A program made the translations under genes and the position numbers. From positions 1,148,451 to 1,212,450 of the forward strand of contig NZ_QRBF01000001.1 in assembly GCF_003363265.1 (NCBI RefSeq): a DNA stretch of 64,000 nt, in the 5' to 3' direction. The DNA comes from Dyella psychrodurans (GTDB lineage Bacteria > Pseudomonadota > Gammaproteobacteria > Xanthomonadales > Rhodanobacteraceae). The notes below the pieces were generated by a model that worked only from the letters and a program-made list of their open reading frames with translations, did no database searches and was not told the origin of the DNA. Of this stretch, positions 41,316 through 47,938 are shown piece by piece; the stretch's first letter is position 1, and every line of letters starts with the position of its first letter.

Positions 41316-42443
41316 TCAGCGATGGGCCGTGCGGCCGACTTCCGACGCGGCGACGATGCGCACGCGATCGCGGTCGCGCACGACGCTTACCCCGGGGAAT
41401 GTTGCCAGATACGCGACAAACGATTCGGGATTGTCGGCGTGGAAAACGCCGCTGATCCGCAGTCCGGCAAGTTGCGGATCTTCGATGACGAGCGGAGTCG
41501 TCGTATACGCGTTGAAGCGGCGTGCGACCTGGCCGATGGTTTCATGCTGGAAACGAATGTCCGTCGGCATCCACTCGGTTGCCTTGGCGATGGTCGCCGC
41601 GCGTATGGATCCGGTAGTCCCCGCCGCACTCAGCCGGAGCTCCTGTCCGGCTACGAGATCGGCCACGGCGTCGCTACTGGTCTGCGAGTCGCCCACGTAG
41701 GCCCTGATTTTGCCGATCCATACATCCGATGCCTTCCAGACACGAACACGGCCGCTGATGACGGTCAGCGTATCGCCATCTGCACCGCGCTGGACGTCGA
41801 AAACCGTGCCGATATCCTGCAGGACGTGGCCACCGACGCCAACGAACATCGGCCGCTTCGGATCCTTGCCCACGTCGAACAATGCGTTGCCACGCACCAC
41901 GTCGATCCTGCGGGCAAGCGCATCGAAATGCACGTCGATCACGCTGTTCTGCGCGAGGTGGACAAGACTCCCGTCCGGGAGATTCACTTCCCTGACGTCT
42001 CCCTGCCCGGTGGCATAACGCTGTTGAACCGCGCCTTCGGCCGGATTCCAAAGACGCCAGGCGCCAAACAACCCCAATACGATCAACGCAGCCGCCGCGG
42101 CAAACCGCCAGACGGTGTATCTGCGCGAACCTGCCGCCTGCTTGTTGTCGGGTGCTTGCGGCATGACACGCGGAAAGGCGACGACCGGCGTCTCGCGCCG
42201 GACCTGCTCCGCCAGCTCCATCATGCTCATCGTATCGATCGCCGCGGCCGCCTTCATGTCGCCGTGCATCTGCGCGATGGCAAGGTATTCGGCGACGTGC
42301 GCGGGCGAGGCGCGCAACCACGTCAGGAATGCGGCCTGCTGTCGCTGGCTAGGATTGTCTTGTTGCTCGAGATACCACGCGGCGGCCTGCTCGGTGATCC
42401 TGCGCGCGCGGCGCCTGGTTTCGAAGTTTCCGGGCTTATTCAT
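41316..42443 (-). CDS. fecR: FecR-type anti-sigma factor with C-terminal STN-like domain
   Basis: A 375-residue single-pass membrane protein. The N-terminal cytoplasmic DUF4880-like part is ITEQAAAWYLEQQDNPSQRQ and AFLTWLRASPAHVAEYLAIA. A transmembrane helix lies at about residues 113-130 (WRFAAAAALIVLGLFGAWRL), then the FecR domain (EVNLPDGSLVHLAQNSVIDV, GHVLQDIGTVFDV). The C-terminal region (IGQVARRFNAYTTTPLVIED) resembles secretin/TonB short N-terminal (STN) domains. FecR proteins relay receptor occupancy to the partner sigma factor. It overlaps fecI by 8 bp. No receptor gene is adjacent on this strand. Confidence 0.92.
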   Translation of the reverse strand: MNKPGNFETRRRARRITEQAAAWYLEQQDNPSQRQQAAFLTWLRASPAHVAEYLAIAQMHGDMKAAAAIDTMSMMELAEQVRRETPVVAFPRVMPQAPDNKQAAGSRRYTVWRFAAAAALIVLGLFGAWRLWNPAEGAVQQRYATGQGDVREVNLPDGSLVHLAQNSVIDVHFDALARRIDVVRGNALFDVGKDPKRPMFVGVGGHVLQDIGTVFDVQRGADGDTLTVISGRVRVWKASDVWIGKIRAYVGDSQTSSDAVADLVAGQELRLSAAGTTGSIRAATIAKATEWMPTDIRFQHETIGQVARRFNAYTTTPLVIEDPQLAGLRISGVFHADNPESFVAYLATFPGVSVVRDRDRVRIVAASEVGRTAHR

Positions 42444-42951
42444 AGTCGGCCATCCTTTGCCGGCATGCTGCCAGTCCTTTCACGATGTATTTCTTCACCA
42501 TGTTGGGCGAAATGGCCAGCTTCTCGGCGATTTCGCGATACGACAATTCGTCCCGGTAGTGCATCACCAGCACCGCCCTGCATTTGGGCGAGAGCTTCTT
42601 GATCAAGGTGCCCAGTCGCTGACGGCGCAATTCGCGATCCACGCCCGCGGCGGCCTCGCATGGCGTGCTCCATTGCTCCAGCACTTCTTCCAGGCCGTCG
42701 CTGCCGAGCGGCAATTGTTGCCGCATGACCGCATGTTCCTTGACCAGGTTGGCGGCAACAGTAAACAGATAGGCTTCCGGATTGCGGATGTTCGCCGCAT
42801 CGGATGGCTCGATTCGAAGCAGGCGGAGATAAACCTCCTGCACGAGATCCTGCGCGTCCCACCGGTGCGAGACGCGCCGGAGGAAGTAATTGCTCAGCGT
42901 CGCGCTTTTTTCCGCAAACAACGCAGACCAGCCTTTGTGCCTATCGTGCAT
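42436..42951 (-). CDS. fecI: ECF RNA polymerase sigma factor, FecI-like
   Basis: A 171-residue ECF sigma factor. Region 2 shows WDAQDLVQEVYLRLLRIEPS and EAYLFTVAANLVKEHAVMRQ; region 4 shows LSPKCRAVLVMHYRDELSYR and EIAEKLAISPNMVKKYIVKG. The frame is open upstream, but AGGAGG five nt before the ATG at 42951 decides the start. It overlaps the fecR start by 8 bp. It directs polymerase to promoters of the cognate regulon, usually a TonB-dependent receptor; here downstream candidates are the small secreted protein and PHP hydrolase. Confidence 0.93.
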   Translation of the reverse strand: MHDRHKGWSALFAEKSATLSNYFLRRVSHRWDAQDLVQEVYLRLLRIEPSDAANIRNPEAYLFTVAANLVKEHAVMRQQLPLGSDGLEEVLEQWSTPCEAAAGVDRELRRQRLGTLIKKLSPKCRAVLVMHYRDELSYREIAEKLAISPNMVKKYIVKGLAACRQRMADYE

Positions 42952-43084
42952 GGCGCCCTCCTCGACCGCCTTCGTCGCCGGAGGACACGGCAATACGATG
43001 ATCCGGCATCGTATGACCGGCTTGTTACGCATTTATGAAACGCCATTTGTGAAGCGTCAGGGATGTGAGAAGCGTCCATTTCCG

Positions 43085-44299
43085 TCATCGCGCTTCGGTC
43101 GCGCATCCTGCCGCGACGGCAACACCCTGAAATCTGTCTTGCGTCCAATGGAAGAGATCTGTTTCCAATCGCGATCCGGCGGCCACCAGCGACAAGTGAT
43201 CTTTGTTGGCATAGGTCACGTATGCAATCGATTGTCCGCGCTCGCAAGCGCTTCGCACGAAAGCGTTCTGGATCGATGGTGCCACCAGTTGGTCGGCAAG
43301 GCCTTGTGCGATGAGCAAGGGCGCCTGAATCTTTCCGTTCGGGATATTTTCGCGCAGGCGCGCTCCAAGCGGTCCCGATGCGGGGTCCGCCTTGAAGATC
43401 GAACCGCTGATAAGCCAGGCATCGGCAACAGCAGGCAGGGCGCTCTTGCCATCGAGACACCTGCGCGACATATCGCGGGCCGGAAACAACGCACCGACGC
43501 GCACCATCCCCGGCCACGAGACATCCGGGTATGTCGCGCTATATCCATCCACGATATAAGACGAGAAAATCCTGCCGACCAGCATGCCTTGCGTGTAATC
43601 CTCGAGCGCGGGGAGATCGGTGGCCGGCGCCAGCGCGGCGACACCTTCTATCCGAAGCTCCGGTGCATAGCCGCTCGCGATCATGCCGGTCCACAAGGCC
43701 GCATGCCCGCCTTGCGAATATCCCCACACGACGACGTTGTCGGACAACTTCAACGCATTCATCTGGCGCGCAGCCCGAACGGCATCCAACGTGGCATGCG
43801 CTTCGTCGGCACCGACTAGATAAGCATGCGCGCCGGACGTACCCAGCCCCGCATAATCGGTCGCGACAACCACCCAGTGCGCTTGCATCGCCAACGCGAG
43901 CGCCGGCGTACCGTCGAGCGGCTGTTGTGAAAGCGAAGGTGCGCACGCCGGGACGACACCGGTGGTTCCGTGCGCCCAGGCAATCACCGGGCTGGGTTCG
44001 GCAGCGTCGACGGAAGACGCCACGACAATGGCGCTGGCCAACGCGGGCGATCCATTCCCTTGTGTTGTCGTGTAGAGGATTCGCCAGCTCTTCGCGCCCG
44101 CGGGGATACCTCGCGCGAACGGCTCGGCGCGCAAAAGCGTTCCGGGCGTTGCCGGAACCTTCGCGGACCATGTGTAAAACGCATCCGGCGGTGTCGGCAA
44201 GGTCACGTACCAAACCACGATCAAAGCGACGACGAACAAGCAAGCGAGCCCAACAAGCGTGCGTAGCAACCACTTGAACAACCTGCCGGAAGAGATCAT
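43085..44299 (-). CDS. Membrane-anchored alpha/beta hydrolase (secretory-lipase family)
   Basis: A 404-residue protein. An N-terminal anchor helix (LLRTLVGLACLFVVALIVVW) is followed by an alpha/beta-hydrolase domain: PVIAWAHGTTGVVPACAPSL, the nucleophile elbow VVWGYSQGGHAALWTG, LLIAQGLADQLVAPSIQNAF with the acid, and YANKDHLSL with the His. The pattern fits the LIP/secretory lipase family (PF03583 type). The active domain is probably periplasmic. It is divergent from the ECF sigma gene at 44731, with palindromes in the gap. The ester substrate is unknown. Confidence 0.9.
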   Translation of the reverse strand: MISSGRLFKWLLRTLVGLACLFVVALIVVWYVTLPTPPDAFYTWSAKVPATPGTLLRAEPFARGIPAGAKSWRILYTTTQGNGSPALASAIVVASSVDAAEPSPVIAWAHGTTGVVPACAPSLSQQPLDGTPALALAMQAHWVVVATDYAGLGTSGAHAYLVGADEAHATLDAVRAARQMNALKLSDNVVVWGYSQGGHAALWTGMIASGYAPELRIEGVAALAPATDLPALEDYTQGMLVGRIFSSYIVDGYSATYPDVSWPGMVRVGALFPARDMSRRCLDGKSALPAVADAWLISGSIFKADPASGPLGARLRENIPNGKIQAPLLIAQGLADQLVAPSIQNAFVRSACERGQSIAYVTYANKDHLSLVAAGSRLETDLFHWTQDRFQGVAVAAGCATEAR

Positions 44300-44410: not shown

Positions 44411-44730
44411 TGAACGCCCACAACCTGTTGCTGCGACCGTTCGGCGAGTCTGCTCAGCCGACCGGCTCATGACCTGCATATACATCAACCGATCGCACCC
44501 GTTCACACGGTCGTAACGCGATTGCTTCATCTGCCGCGCATGGAACGAGCGCCACACGCGGCCTGTTCGGCTGGGAAGCAGCCTTCATGCCCGGCTGCCG
44601 GGGAAGGGGTACGATTCACAGGGCCATCGTGAATACCCGCACCCTGTGGGACGGTTCAAAACCCGATTGAACCAAACGGGCCCCGGCGGGTATCCACGTG
44701 CATGCAGGGGTACCGTTCCTGGGAGCCGCC

Positions 44731-45321
44731 ATGCGCGACAGGCATGTTGACGACGAAAGACAAGGCAACGCCGTCTCGACCGACGACGAAGTGCTTCTGT
44801 TGAGTCGCGTCGCCGCGGAGGAAATCGACGCCTTCGAAACGCTCTACCGTCTCTATAGTCCGCGCCTGCAACGCTTTGTGCGCGGCATCACCAAGCAACC
44901 GATGCTGGTCGAGGAAATTCTCGACGACACCATGATGGTGGTATGGCGCAAGGCGTACACCTTCAACCACACCGCGAAAGTCTCCACGTGGATTCTGGCG
45001 ATCGCCTATCGCCAATCGCTGAAGGCACTCAGGCGGCACGGCGAGCCCGTGGACGAGGACGTGCGCGACCATGCGGATGTCTCTGCCGTCGGCCCCGACG
45101 ACGCATTGGAGCAGCAGGAGTTGCGCAAGCATCTGGATGCCGCGCTCGGCACGCTGTCGCCCGAACAGCGCGCGGTGATGGAGCTCACTTATTACTTCGG
45201 ATATGCCTGCCGCGAAATCGCGCAGATCATGGGCTGTCCGGTCGATACGGTCAAAACGCGCATGTTTTATGCGCGACGCAAGCTCAAGACCTGGCTTGCG
45301 TCGCGCAGGGAGGCCATATGA
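44731..45321 (+). CDS. ECF RNA polymerase sigma factor
   Basis: A 196-residue ECF sigma factor. Region 2 contains YRLYSPRLQRFVRGITKQPM, VEEILDDTMMVVWRKAYTFN and VSTWILAIAYRQSLKALRRH; region 4 contains LSPEQRAVMELTYYFGYACR and EIAQIMGCPVDTVKTRMFYA. The start at 44731 is preferred over an earlier GTG because GGGAGCCGCC precedes it. Its stop overlaps the anti-sigma start (ATGA). It is the first gene of a coupled operon with anti-sigma, subtilase and TorF genes, and resembles the RpoE/SigK-like ECF groups that pair with zinc-finger anti-sigma factors. Confidence 0.94.
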   Translation: MRDRHVDDERQGNAVSTDDEVLLLSRVAAEEIDAFETLYRLYSPRLQRFVRGITKQPMLVEEILDDTMMVVWRKAYTFNHTAKVSTWILAIAYRQSLKALRRHGEPVDEDVRDHADVSAVGPDDALEQQELRKHLDAALGTLSPEQRAVMELTYYFGYACREIAQIMGCPVDTVKTRMFYARRKLKTWLASRREAI

Positions 45322-45956
45322 ATGGTCGGGTGATCAAGTTCGAAGGGCCCGTGCACGCGGAGGCCGATCGCCTTCTGCCTTGGCTGATCAACGGCACGCT
45401 CGACGACGACGAACGTCGACAAGTCGAACAGCACGTGGCGGAATGCGCGCAATGCCAGCGCGAAGTCGCCTGGCTGCGCACACTACAGTCGCAGTATCGC
45501 GACGATGATGCCGATGCGGACCATGTACCGCACGCCATGAAGCGGCTGCGCCATCGCATGGGAAAGGTCGGCATCAAGAGGGCGACACCGGCCTCTCTCT
45601 CCTCGGCGTGGCGGCGACGCGGACGCCGGCTCGCCTGGCTCGCCGCCGCGCAAGCCGCGATCATCTTCGCCATGGGCGTGGTGCTGCTTCAGGATCGTCA
45701 CGCCGCGTATCACACGCTGAGTGCCCCGGCGAGCAAGGGCTCGCTGCTGGTGGTCGTGTTCGATCCGCGCATCAGCGAAGCGCAAATGCGTCGATTGGTG
45801 CGCGCCGGCGATGGCCGCATTGTTGGCGGCCCCACGGAGACGGGCGCGTATCTCCTCAGCGTGCCTGACGAACAAGCCGCCTCCAGCCGAAAGATGCTGC
45901 ACGATTCCCCGTCCGTGACCATGGTGGAAAATCTCCAGGCGGGTGGAAGCCCATGA
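45318..45956 (+). CDS. Zinc-finger anti-sigma factor with periplasmic subtilisin-propeptide-like domain
   Basis: A 212-residue membrane anti-sigma factor. The cytoplasmic ZAS motif is His39-x3-Cys43-x2-Cys46 (QHVAECAQCQREV). One transmembrane helix lies at about 105-124 (LAWLAAAQAAIIFAMGVVLL). The periplasmic domain, about 142-206, reads SLLVVVFDPRISEAQMRRLV, GRIVGGPTETGAYLLSV and MLHDSPSVTMVENL, a beta-alpha-beta-beta-alpha-beta pattern like the I9 propeptide of subtilases. It resembles the N-terminal region of the subtilase encoded next. Overlaps of ATGA type on both sides imply coupled translation. The ZAS assignment is firm; the propeptide likeness is by eye. Confidence 0.9.
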   Translation: MNGRVIKFEGPVHAEADRLLPWLINGTLDDDERRQVEQHVAECAQCQREVAWLRTLQSQYRDDDADADHVPHAMKRLRHRMGKVGIKRATPASLSSAWRRRGRRLAWLAAAQAAIIFAMGVVLLQDRHAAYHTLSAPASKGSLLVVVFDPRISEAQMRRLVRAGDGRIVGGPTETGAYLLSVPDEQAASSRKMLHDSPSVTMVENLQAGGSP

Positions 45957-47233
45957 TGCGATGGCGAACCATCGGCCTCATGCTTGCCGTCCTTGGCTTG
46001 GGAGGTTGCGCGTCGACAGGCGGGATGACATCGCGTCCCGCGCAGCTTCCCGATGCGACGCGTTCGCAAGTGCTCGTCATGCTGCGTGTTGCGCCACCCC
46101 ATCTGCACGCGACCAACGACTACGTCGGCGACTATGCGTCGACGCCCGACGAAACCGCACGCAAACACATTGCGCAGAAGCTCGCGCATCAATACGGGTT
46201 GCAGTTGATCGGCGGCTGGCCAATGCCTGCACTGGGCCTGGATTGCTTCGTGATGCAAGCGGGCCCTGGCCTGTCGACGCAACAGATTACCCGGACGCTA
46301 TCGCAAGATGCGCGCGTCGAATCGGCCGAGCCGATGCAACTTTTCCATGTGCTCGGCAAGGGCGATCCGCTCTATCCGTTGCAACCCACCGCCACACAAT
46401 GGCATCTGGCCGAGCTTCACACGATCACCACGGGCAAGAACGTGACCGTGGCCGAACTCGATAGCGGCGTGGATGTCTCGAACCCGGATCTGGCCGGACA
46501 GGTTGCGCAGACGCAGAATTTTGTCGACGACAGCGCCTATCGCGCCGAGATGCATGGCACGGAAGTCGCGGGCATCATCGTCGCGCGCGAAGGCAACGGC
46601 GTGGGCATTGCGGGCGTCGCGCCGCACGCGCAGCTCCTGGCATTGCGTGCCTGCTGGCAGGCATCGAGCGATGATGCGGCCGCGAGCTGCAGCAGTTTTA
46701 CGCTGGCCAAGGCGCTGCAATACGCGCTGCGAAGCGATGCCACGGTCTTCAATCTCAGCCTGGCGGGCCCTCGCGATCGACTGCTGGAACGTCTGTTGGA
46801 TGCCGCGTTGGCGCGGCATATCACCGTTGTCGGCGCCGTGGACGGCGCCGCGACGGATGGCGGGTTCCCGGCCTCCTATCCGGGCGTGATCGCCGTGGCC
46901 GACGAACATACCGAACCCGTGACCATCGAAGGCGCGTTACGGGCGCCGGGTGTCGATGTCCCGACCACCCAGCCGGGCGCGCACTGGAACTTCGTGACCG
47001 GCTCGTCGTTCTCGGCGGCCGAGGTCAGCGGACTGGTGGCATTGGTGCGGGAGCTGTCCCCCGACATCACGCCCACGCAGCTGCATGACGCCTTGAACGC
47101 AAAAACTGCGCTAGGCTTGGCTTCAATGCGGCCAGCGATGATCGATGCATGTGCGGCCGTGGCGCGGGTAAGCGAAAGTTGCACGTGCGACTGCGCTACG
47201 GCGAATGCCTCACTGACGGTGCCGCGCCGATGA
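45953..47233 (+). CDS. Subtilisin-like serine protease lipoprotein (S8 family)
   Basis: A 426-residue protein. The signal ends in the lipobox LGLGGC (Cys19). A propeptide-like region covers about residues 38-130 (SQVLVMLRV, YGLQLIGGWPMPALGLDCFV, LSQDARVESAEPMQ). The S8 catalytic domain has Asp170 in VAELDSGVDV, His201 in MHGTEVAGII and Ser352 in TGSSFSAAEVSG. In the stretch that normally supplies the oxyanion Asn (A-G-N) the sequence reads GAVDG, so that residue may be Asp. The C-terminus is Cys-rich (CAAV...CTCDC). A lipoprotein protease in the same coupled operon as an anti-sigma factor suggests signalling or envelope quality control. Confidence 0.9.
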   Translation: MMRWRTIGLMLAVLGLGGCASTGGMTSRPAQLPDATRSQVLVMLRVAPPHLHATNDYVGDYASTPDETARKHIAQKLAHQYGLQLIGGWPMPALGLDCFVMQAGPGLSTQQITRTLSQDARVESAEPMQLFHVLGKGDPLYPLQPTATQWHLAELHTITTGKNVTVAELDSGVDVSNPDLAGQVAQTQNFVDDSAYRAEMHGTEVAGIIVAREGNGVGIAGVAPHAQLLALRACWQASSDDAAASCSSFTLAKALQYALRSDATVFNLSLAGPRDRLLERLLDAALARHITVVGAVDGAATDGGFPASYPGVIAVADEHTEPVTIEGALRAPGVDVPTTQPGAHWNFVTGSSFSAAEVSGLVALVRELSPDITPTQLHDALNAKTALGLASMRPAMIDACAAVARVSESCTCDCATANASLTVPRR

Positions 47234-47242
47234 GAACGTCCC

Positions 47243-47938
47243 GTGTTACGAGCCATCGTGGCAGTCGCTCTCACCTTGTTCGTGATGCAGGCCCGCGCGC
47301 AGTTCGCGGGCAGCATCACGCTGAGTTCCGATTACCGTTTTCGCGGAGTGTCTCTCAGCGACGACCGGCCATCTGCGCAATTGGCGTTCGACTACGACCT
47401 GCCCTCCACCGGATGGTATGCGGGAGGCATGATGGCTAGCGTGCGACTCGACGACCCCAGGCAGGCTGCGCAGTGGCTGGTCTATGCCGGCTACGCCAGT
47501 CGCCTGACAGCGAACCTGAGCTGGGACGCGGGCGAACGATACACACGCTTCACCGGACCGGAATCGTATGCGTATGCCGAGACCTACGTCGGGCTGACCT
47601 ACCAGCAGCTGGTGGGCCGCGTTTACTACGCACCCGACTATTTCAACTTCGGTTATCCCGCGTGGTATGCCGAACTCAACGACAGCCACACCCTCGTCGG
47701 CAGATGGTACGTGTTCGGACATGTGGGTTATCTGCGGCGCGACGGCGACGTGGCGGACTATCACGCCAGCCGTTATCGCTCGGACTTGCGCGCAGGCATC
47801 GGTCTTGCGCTAACCCCGTGCGATGTACAGCTGAGCTGGTCCACCGTTCGTGGCGCGAGTTACGAAGTGTTCGGCTATCCGGCGAGCCAGGGCGTGACTC
47901 GCAATGCGTGGATTCTGAGTTTTTCCTATGCATGGTGA
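47243..47938 (+). CDS. TorF family outer-membrane protein
   Basis: A 231-residue protein. A signal peptide (AIVAVALTLFVMQARAQ) is followed by the TorF-family opening GSITLSSDYRFRGVSLSDDR and many amphipathic strands, ending in SFSYAW with an aromatic residue as in outer-membrane barrels. The start is a GTG 9 bp after the subtilase stop. TorF-like proteins (Gcw_chp family) are putative porins of unknown substrate. It is the last gene of the ECF sigma, anti-sigma, subtilase operon and may be a target or partner of it. Confidence 0.85.
   Translation: MLRAIVAVALTLFVMQARAQFAGSITLSSDYRFRGVSLSDDRPSAQLAFDYDLPSTGWYAGGMMASVRLDDPRQAAQWLVYAGYASRLTANLSWDAGERYTRFTGPESYAYAETYVGLTYQQLVGRVYYAPDYFNFGYPAWYAELNDSHTLVGRWYVFGHVGYLRRDGDVADYHASRYRSDLRAGIGLALTPCDVQLSWSTVRGASYEVFGYPASQGVTRNAWILSFSYAW

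Follow-up and report, generated by a model that had tools for sequence, protein, structure and literature searches.

Gene order and protein architecture at the locus

The 64,000-nucleotide stretch of Dyella psychrodurans DNA analysed here (the window; contig NZ_QRBF01000001.1, positions 1,148,451 to 1,212,450) contains an operon in the order extracytoplasmic function (ECF) sigma factor, zinc-binding anti-sigma (ZAS) factor, S8 subtilase and TorF-family porin, in which neighbouring genes overlap or nearly touch. This study concerns the anti-sigma factor (ASF) and the subtilase encoded beside it, for which we propose a relationship of substrate and protease. All features described below lie on the + strand unless stated otherwise. 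The ECF sigma factor gene (44698..45321) is recognised by Sigma70_r2 (E 1.7e-9) and r4_2 (E 2.4e-14), with an uncertain start and an ATG at 44731; its stop (45321) overlaps the start of the ASF gene (45318), placing the ASF in one unit with its own sigma factor.

The ASF gene (45318..45956) is an open reading frame of 212 amino acids. An initial annotation, made by reading the sequence alone, had described a zinc motif, a single helix and a further domain at residues of about 142-206, and this architecture was borne out. The zf-HC2 domain (residues 15-47; 45360..45458) exceeds the cut-off of Pfam PF13490 (E 3e-8) and includes HxxxCxxC at residues 39-46 (H39, C43, C46), the sole hydrophobic stretch, LAWLAAAQAAIIFAMGVVLL, is the predicted transmembrane helix (residues ~105-124; 45630..45689), and the C-terminal domain (residues 142-206; 45741..45935) is predicted to be periplasmic.

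The adjoining gene (45953..47233) encodes a subtilase of 426 amino acids, a neighbour that is conserved in relatives. As first proposed, it is a genuine member of family S8 (PF00082, E 4e-25), with the Asp-His-Ser triad (D170, 46460-46462; H201, 46553-46555; S352, 47006-47008) inside a catalytic domain at residues 161-383 (46433..47101). Among aligned S8 partners the triad Asp and His are kept in 128 of 128, and the Ser in all 119 that reach that column. The signal peptide with its lipobox LGGC (residues 1-19; 45953..46009) was read from the sequence, and the description of the subtilase as a lipoprotein fits the protein of the window; the lipobox is absent from some relatives. The propeptide (residues ~38-134; 46064..46354) was delimited by its hhalign match to the ASF domain and by profile alignment to the subtilisin E precursor. 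In the latter alignment, S8 'fevl' falls over AHEY of the precursor, which places the predicted maturation site at FHVL|G (residues 131-135; 46343..46357), with the bond between 46354 and 46355.

A propeptide-like periplasmic domain in the anti-sigma factor

In Pfam, the ASF C-terminal domain matched a single family, Fervidolysin_NPro-like PF22148, an I9-type propeptide family (residues 144-204, E 0.023). Scanned alone, the domain reached E 0.0026 and 18.6 bits, below the curated cut-off of 21. The same family matched 13 of 25 ASF relatives (E<=1), 17 of 57 members of the ASF domain alignment (E<=0.1; best 4e-6) and 4 of 21 S8 proteins (E<=1; best 0.0045). When ten ASF domain stretches were compared singly with PF22148, one (L082) exceeded the cut-off (27.5 vs 21), three were weak or below it, and the rest were unmatched.

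A direct comparison of ASF domains with S8 propeptides by hhalign gave a score of 25.9 (probability 45, E 2e-4); 100 column shuffles reached 19.9 at most. With deeper alignments (156 S8-linked ASF domains against 114 propeptides) the score rose to 33.7 (probability 81, E 1.2e-5), and 60 shuffles gave 11.1 or less. The pairs that had been aligned by eye (RIVGG with LQLIGG, AYLLSV with DCFVMQ, and MLHDSPSVTMVENLQ with TLSQDARVESAEPMQ) were recovered by hhalign. At the level of sequence profiles, the proposed resemblance of the ASF domain to the S8 propeptide holds, and both appear to belong to PF22148; a ferredoxin-like beta-alpha-beta-beta-alpha-beta fold is predicted for the ASF domain on the same grounds.

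A match to an I9 inhibitor or a ferredoxin-like propeptide had been expected in Pfam or PDB. Pfam gave the PF22148 match, below the cut-off as noted. A PDB sequence search with the ASF domain profile gave nothing convincing (4 matches up to E 10, the best a coat protein at E 0.031), and a PDB search with the whole ASF gave matches on the cytoplasmic part, mostly anti-sigma factors, and none over the C-terminal domain.

Proteases encoded beside the anti-sigma factor across genomes

Relatives were collected by ASF similarity, blind to their neighbours, from 147 genomes of the family, 274 of the class and 398 of the phylum. Three added searches used a seed linked to a C14 caspase-like gene, and a fourth repeated the family search with that seed. 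After merging of duplicates, and with matches required to reach model position 175, the count set comprised 189 unique ASFs, including that of the window. An S8 gene accompanied 159 of the 189, in agreement with the predicted co-occurrence of domain and subtilase: 156 were adjacent on the same strand and 3 lay upstream (2 on the same strand, 1 divergent). A C14 caspase-like gene accompanied 21 ASFs, adjacent in 15 and 2.8-4.2 kb downstream on the same strand in 6; because some searches used a C14-linked seed, the ratio of S8 to C14 is no population estimate. The C14 assignment rests on Pfam for four loci (L064, L089, L067, L070; E 2e-11 to 2e-39) and, for the remainder, on a model built from these four.

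The remaining 9 ASFs had neither protease nearby. Three of them (L051, L048, L020) end no more than 120 nt from the edge of their contig, and three others have 786-1500 nt of sequence left (L069, L239, L253). L065 and L068 have no S8 or C14 gene within ~8 kb downstream. L178 has no S8 gene within 2.5 kb downstream and retains an intact YRTLS motif of the kind described below; a recent loss of S8 is possible in this case.

Twelve matches were left out of the count. Among them are L006 and its copy L014, with a full ASF and an adjacent S8, and the S8 count is therefore one too low. Ten partial matches were left out as lacking the domain or ending before it (L056, L057, L059, L060, L063, L127, L171, L173, L209, L234); none has S8 or C14 in its locus, and two are cut by a contig end. 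As a control, 56 genomes of the class yielded 22 zf-HC2 matches, of which 3 have an S8 gene no more than 5 kb away (positions compared by eye). It is in these 3 (the window's, G147 and G160) that the ASF match, at the class-search threshold, extends into the domain.

Six ASFs of the same family (L070-L073, L265, L266) lack the zinc Cys residues and have their C14 caspase-like gene 2.8-4.2 kb downstream; in some of these an OmpA-like gene comes next, as judged by eye.

A juxtamembrane motif matching the predicted S8 maturation site

Between the transmembrane helix and the periplasmic domain, the ASF carries the motif YHTL|S (residues 131-135; 45708..45722), which resembles the predicted maturation site FHVL|G of its own S8 partner and was picked out by a profile of S8 maturation sites, with a predicted site-1 cut between 45719 and 45720. 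Across the 99 maturation sites read by alignment, P4 is Tyr in 55 and Phe in 41, P1 is Tyr in 54, Leu in 35 and Phe in 5, and P1' is Ala in 42, Ser in 23 and Gly in 18; the reading PRHP in L130 and L137, two of these 99, is apparently an error. We then built a matrix for P4-P1' from S8 sites only and used it to score all windows (~95) in the periplasmic part of the cognate ASF. The motif ranked first in 98 of 99 ASFs and second in 1, its position in the ASFs having been set by a loose rule that was defined after the ASFs had been seen.

At the level of 22 clusters (50% identity), the top window was juxtamembrane in 21 and at the motif itself in 20 (L088 being off the motif). Position-permuted matrices placed the top window in the juxtamembrane stretch in 3, 6, 6, 11 and 12 of the 22 clusters. 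A scan of the whole ASF with the S8-site matrix gave 18 of 22. The correspondence extends in places to individual residues: in L022, YRTL|G occurs in both S8 and ASF, and in L023, YRAL|A in S8 faces YHAL|A in the ASF. When cognate pairs were compared with shuffled partners in 31 clusters, shared residues exceeded the shuffled level at P2 (18 vs 13.0, p 0.006), at P1' (10 vs 6.0, p 0.017) and in total (p 0.0012), with residual kinship still contained in these p-values; in the same 31 clusters, P4, P3 and P1 were shared no more than with shuffled partners. Lying outside the propeptide-like domain and overlooked by the initial annotation, this motif is a better candidate for the contact between protease and ASF.

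The motif changes with the type of partner protease

The rule [YF]xx[YLF][ASGT], derived from the S8 sites and scanned over up to 26 residues after the transmembrane helix, matched 130 of 159 S8-linked ASFs and 0 of 19 C14-linked ASFs. Its chance level, taken from the rest of the domain, was 17 in 12,366 windows, or 0.036 per juxtamembrane stretch. All 19 C14-linked ASFs carry R[GSA] instead, a pattern also present in S8-linked ASFs, namely in 31 of the 130 that match the S8 rule (YRALS, for instance, contains it) and in 2 of the 29 others. Two C14-linked ASFs were left out of the 19, L213 with a misplaced transmembrane helix and L218 being truncated; by eye, both show Arg followed by Ala or Ser. 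The Arg rule had been set on the first nine C14 cases, before the C14-seeded searches, and 12 of 12 new C14-linked members conform to it (L213 and L218 by eye). C14 enzymes other than caspases are described in a review as preferring Arg or Lys at P1 (PMC5756287), and an Arg followed by a small residue in the C14-linked ASFs would be fitting for such Arg-cutting caspase relatives.

Cluster-level Fisher values were 2e-8 and 9e-15 at 50% identity and 3e-5 and 4e-11 at 40% identity; these overstate independence, because the C14 group is nearly one clade and represents about one swap. In a sigma-factor tree built by a quick method from 73 rows (59 S8, 14 C14), the C14 members fall into nearly one clade, with 2 changes of which 1 is forced. 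The tree offers 1 independent pair on starred branches, too few for significance, and in random pairings on the tree the motif goes with the protease in about half, with no difference in the rest and none in the opposite direction. The S8-linked L231 groups with the C14 members in the tree and lacks the S8 motif.

These results bear on the explanation that the genes are linked by the operon only. In that case the sigma factor would have S8 among its outputs, the domain would be a ferredoxin-like sensor of a generic kind, and the motif would either be structural or serve another site-1 protease. The occurrence of the domain with S8, with C14 and with neither (L065, L068), a swap of about one event and the motif retained by L178 are all in keeping with it. 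Against it stand the selection of the motif among ~95 windows by its match to the S8 maturation site, the absence of the S8 motif from every C14-linked ASF counted, and the sharing of P2 and P1' with the cognate site beyond that with shuffled ones; we consider this explanation fairly unlikely.

Docking or inhibition by the periplasmic domain

The initial annotation had suggested that free protease, or protease released from its inhibitor, competes for or cleaves the periplasmic domain and thereby frees the sigma factor. Its general idea of a protease acting on the ASF is retained here, and its inhibitor module is less favoured. In such a scheme the domain would be an I9-type inhibitor or decoy of free S8, and the state of the envelope would be reported, and the sigma factor freed, through titration of S8 by this domain or by the S8 propeptide. 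The similarity of the domain to the propeptide and its linkage to S8 speak for this scheme, as does the propeptide-like end of strand 4 (AEP), which is kept in 88 of 159 S8-linked ASFs and in 0 of 21 C14-linked ones. We nevertheless regard it as unlikely: the propeptide plug (aromatic-x-x-Leu/Tyr; [YF]xx[YLF] within 3 residues of the end) occurs in 0 of 159 S8-linked ASF tails, the domain family persists beside C14 proteases (21 of 189), and the juxtamembrane copy of the maturation site is left unexplained.

The possibility that the ASF C-terminus itself serves as a product-like plug was rejected as its main role, as its letters do not fit the S8 site. The tails extend 6 or 8 residues beyond the strand-4 Glu/Gln in 56 and 27, respectively, of 124 readable cases. 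The C14-linked and S8-linked domains are clearly homologous by profile comparison (probability 98.8), and the C14-linked domains match the propeptides more weakly than the S8-linked ones do (E 0.016, score 18.1, 60 shuffles <=16.9, from only 20 sequences). In a ferredoxin-like sheet with strand order 4-1-3-2, strand 1 begins next to where strand 4 ends, and a cut site placed before strand 1 could consequently reach the same active site. Such an arrangement points to a domain that docks but does not inhibit, the cut site having shifted to its N-terminal side.

Proposed site-1 cleavage by the S8 subtilase

We lean towards a reading in which S8 is the dedicated site-1 protease of the adjoining ASF and the propeptide-like domain is its docking module. 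Starting from the observed gene order and its conservation, the domain similarity, and the motif match with its swap by protease type, we infer docking, cleavage, their order and a signal as follows. The periplasmic domain of the ASF would dock on S8 where the S8 propeptide itself sits; because the ASF domain lacks a C-terminal plug, the active site would stay open for the juxtamembrane segment. S8 would then cut the ASF at YHTL|S, which nearly duplicates FHVL|G, the predicted site of S8 maturation, after which an RseP-like protease would cut the remaining stub in the membrane and free the sigma factor. A candidate for this site-2 step is present, since the genome holds one long M50 protease (G000:C1:1266618-1267886, E 1.2e-68). 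The signal may lie in S8 being freed of its propeptide when the envelope is under stress.

Several observations weigh against this interpretation. The S8 maturation sites are predicted by alignment and were readable in 99 of 128 S8 partners. The strict motif is missing from 29 of the 159 S8-linked ASFs; 14 of these have [FY]xTAS, with Ala at P1, and 23 of the 29 belong to other classes of the phylum. Conversely, 5 of the 9 ASFs for which no protease was found still carry the S8 motif (one of them ending at a contig end). The exchange of protease amounts to about one event, conserved on both sides. By the sorting rule for lipoproteins, the lipobox of the window's S8 suggests sorting to the outer membrane, away from the ASF. 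The oxyanion Asn is absent from that enzyme, with the triad kept (residues 297-308, 46841-46876; the stretch AVDGAATDGGF has no Asn), and is likewise absent from 88 of 88 aligned S8s of the same family, whereas it is present in 25 of 40 from other families; 3 of the 128 aligned S8s have no letters at this position. The activity of S8 may accordingly be low, to judge from the missing Asn. Some active subtilases, such as PC2, work with Asp at the oxyanion position.

The missing Asn is also what favours a further alternative, in which S8 is a slow or non-turnover binding sensor that matures itself once and then signals by holding or releasing the ASF domain uncut. We judge this very unlikely in view of the complete conservation of the triad in the aligned enzymes and of the maturation-site copy in the ASF, which argues for cutting.

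Relation to known regulatory systems

A role of S8 as site-1 protease would place the ASF/S8 system within regulated proteolysis of anti-sigma factors, a known kind of control. Few anti-sigma factors have an identified site-1 protease. Our literature search, outside which most subscription papers fell, gave no recognised report of anti-sigma factor cleavage by an S8 protease, nor of an I9-type domain in an anti-sigma factor.

The closest analogue appears to be the eukaryotic site-1 protease (S1P) and its substrate SREBP. S1P (SKI-1/MBTPS1) cuts SREBP-2 at RSVL|S. As described in PMC11231238, S1P is a subtilase that matures itself, makes the first cut of SREBP and is controlled by its prodomain, and SPRING licenses it by displacing that prodomain. 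The likeness lies in an S8 subtilase making the first cut of a membrane-held regulator, as proposed here. Unlike in S1P/SREBP, the present system is bacterial, its target is an anti-sigma factor, and P4 is aromatic where the S1P site has Arg; the docking domain would lie within the substrate itself, whereas SPRING is a separate protein, and the window's S8 is no transmembrane protein. More broadly, and only tentatively, these modules may represent a widespread bacterial form of S1P-like signalling. In them, the ASF would combine a docking domain derived from a propeptide with a copied self-cleavage site of its partner, and the protease would treat the ASF as a second propeptide. Over evolution the site-1 protease would be exchangeable between subtilase and caspase-like enzyme, the aromatic-x-x-Leu|Ser site giving way to Arg|small.

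In the E. coli sigma-E pathway, a site-1 protease cuts the anti-sigma factor in the periplasm before the site-2 cut (DegS/RseA/RseP; PMC8103513). DegS belongs to the HtrA family and bears a PDZ domain, unlike the S8 or C14 protease encoded here in the same operon. A subtilase in the gene context is shared with ECF54, for which a review lists subtilase, carboxypeptidase and CHAT proteins as proposed proteolytic regulators without an anti-sigma factor (PMC8999054). Both the ASF domain and the N-terminal region of S8 match the I9/Fervidolysin-type propeptides (PF22148); in contrast to these propeptides, the ASF domain lies C-terminal to a transmembrane helix, with no protease domain in cis and no C-terminal plug. 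Unlike the ASF systems described here, the CRISPR-associated Csx29/Csx30 is reportedly RNA-guided and cytoplasmic. It shares with them a caspase-like protease tied to an anti-sigma-like protein, a likeness by description (PMC10028731).

If the proposed cleavage is correct, the operon itself would reveal the partner protease and cut site for many sigma factors that lack a known signal. Subtilase maturation would also be tied to bacterial gene control, and a function would suggest itself for caspase-like enzymes that are secreted.

Additional features of the locus

A simple scan for the ECF-type promoter GGAAC-N-GT upstream of the sigma factor gene gave 1 match in the window and 1 (L012) among 12 relatives, and by this measure the element is not conserved. 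A search of a plasmid collection matched no relatives. Directly 3' of S8 lies the TorF/Gcw_chp family putative porin gene (47243..47938; TIGR02001, E 5e-21), which occupies this position in close relatives too. A second sigma-ASF-S8 module is found in the same genome (L002; G000:C13:202768-206280), its ASF 27% and its S8 37% identical to those of the window. About 2 kb away, on the opposite strand (41316-43032, -), lies a pair of a different type, formed by a sigma-70 family gene and FecR (PF04773, E 2e-17), and a secretory-lipase-like gene (43085-44299) adjoins this pair.

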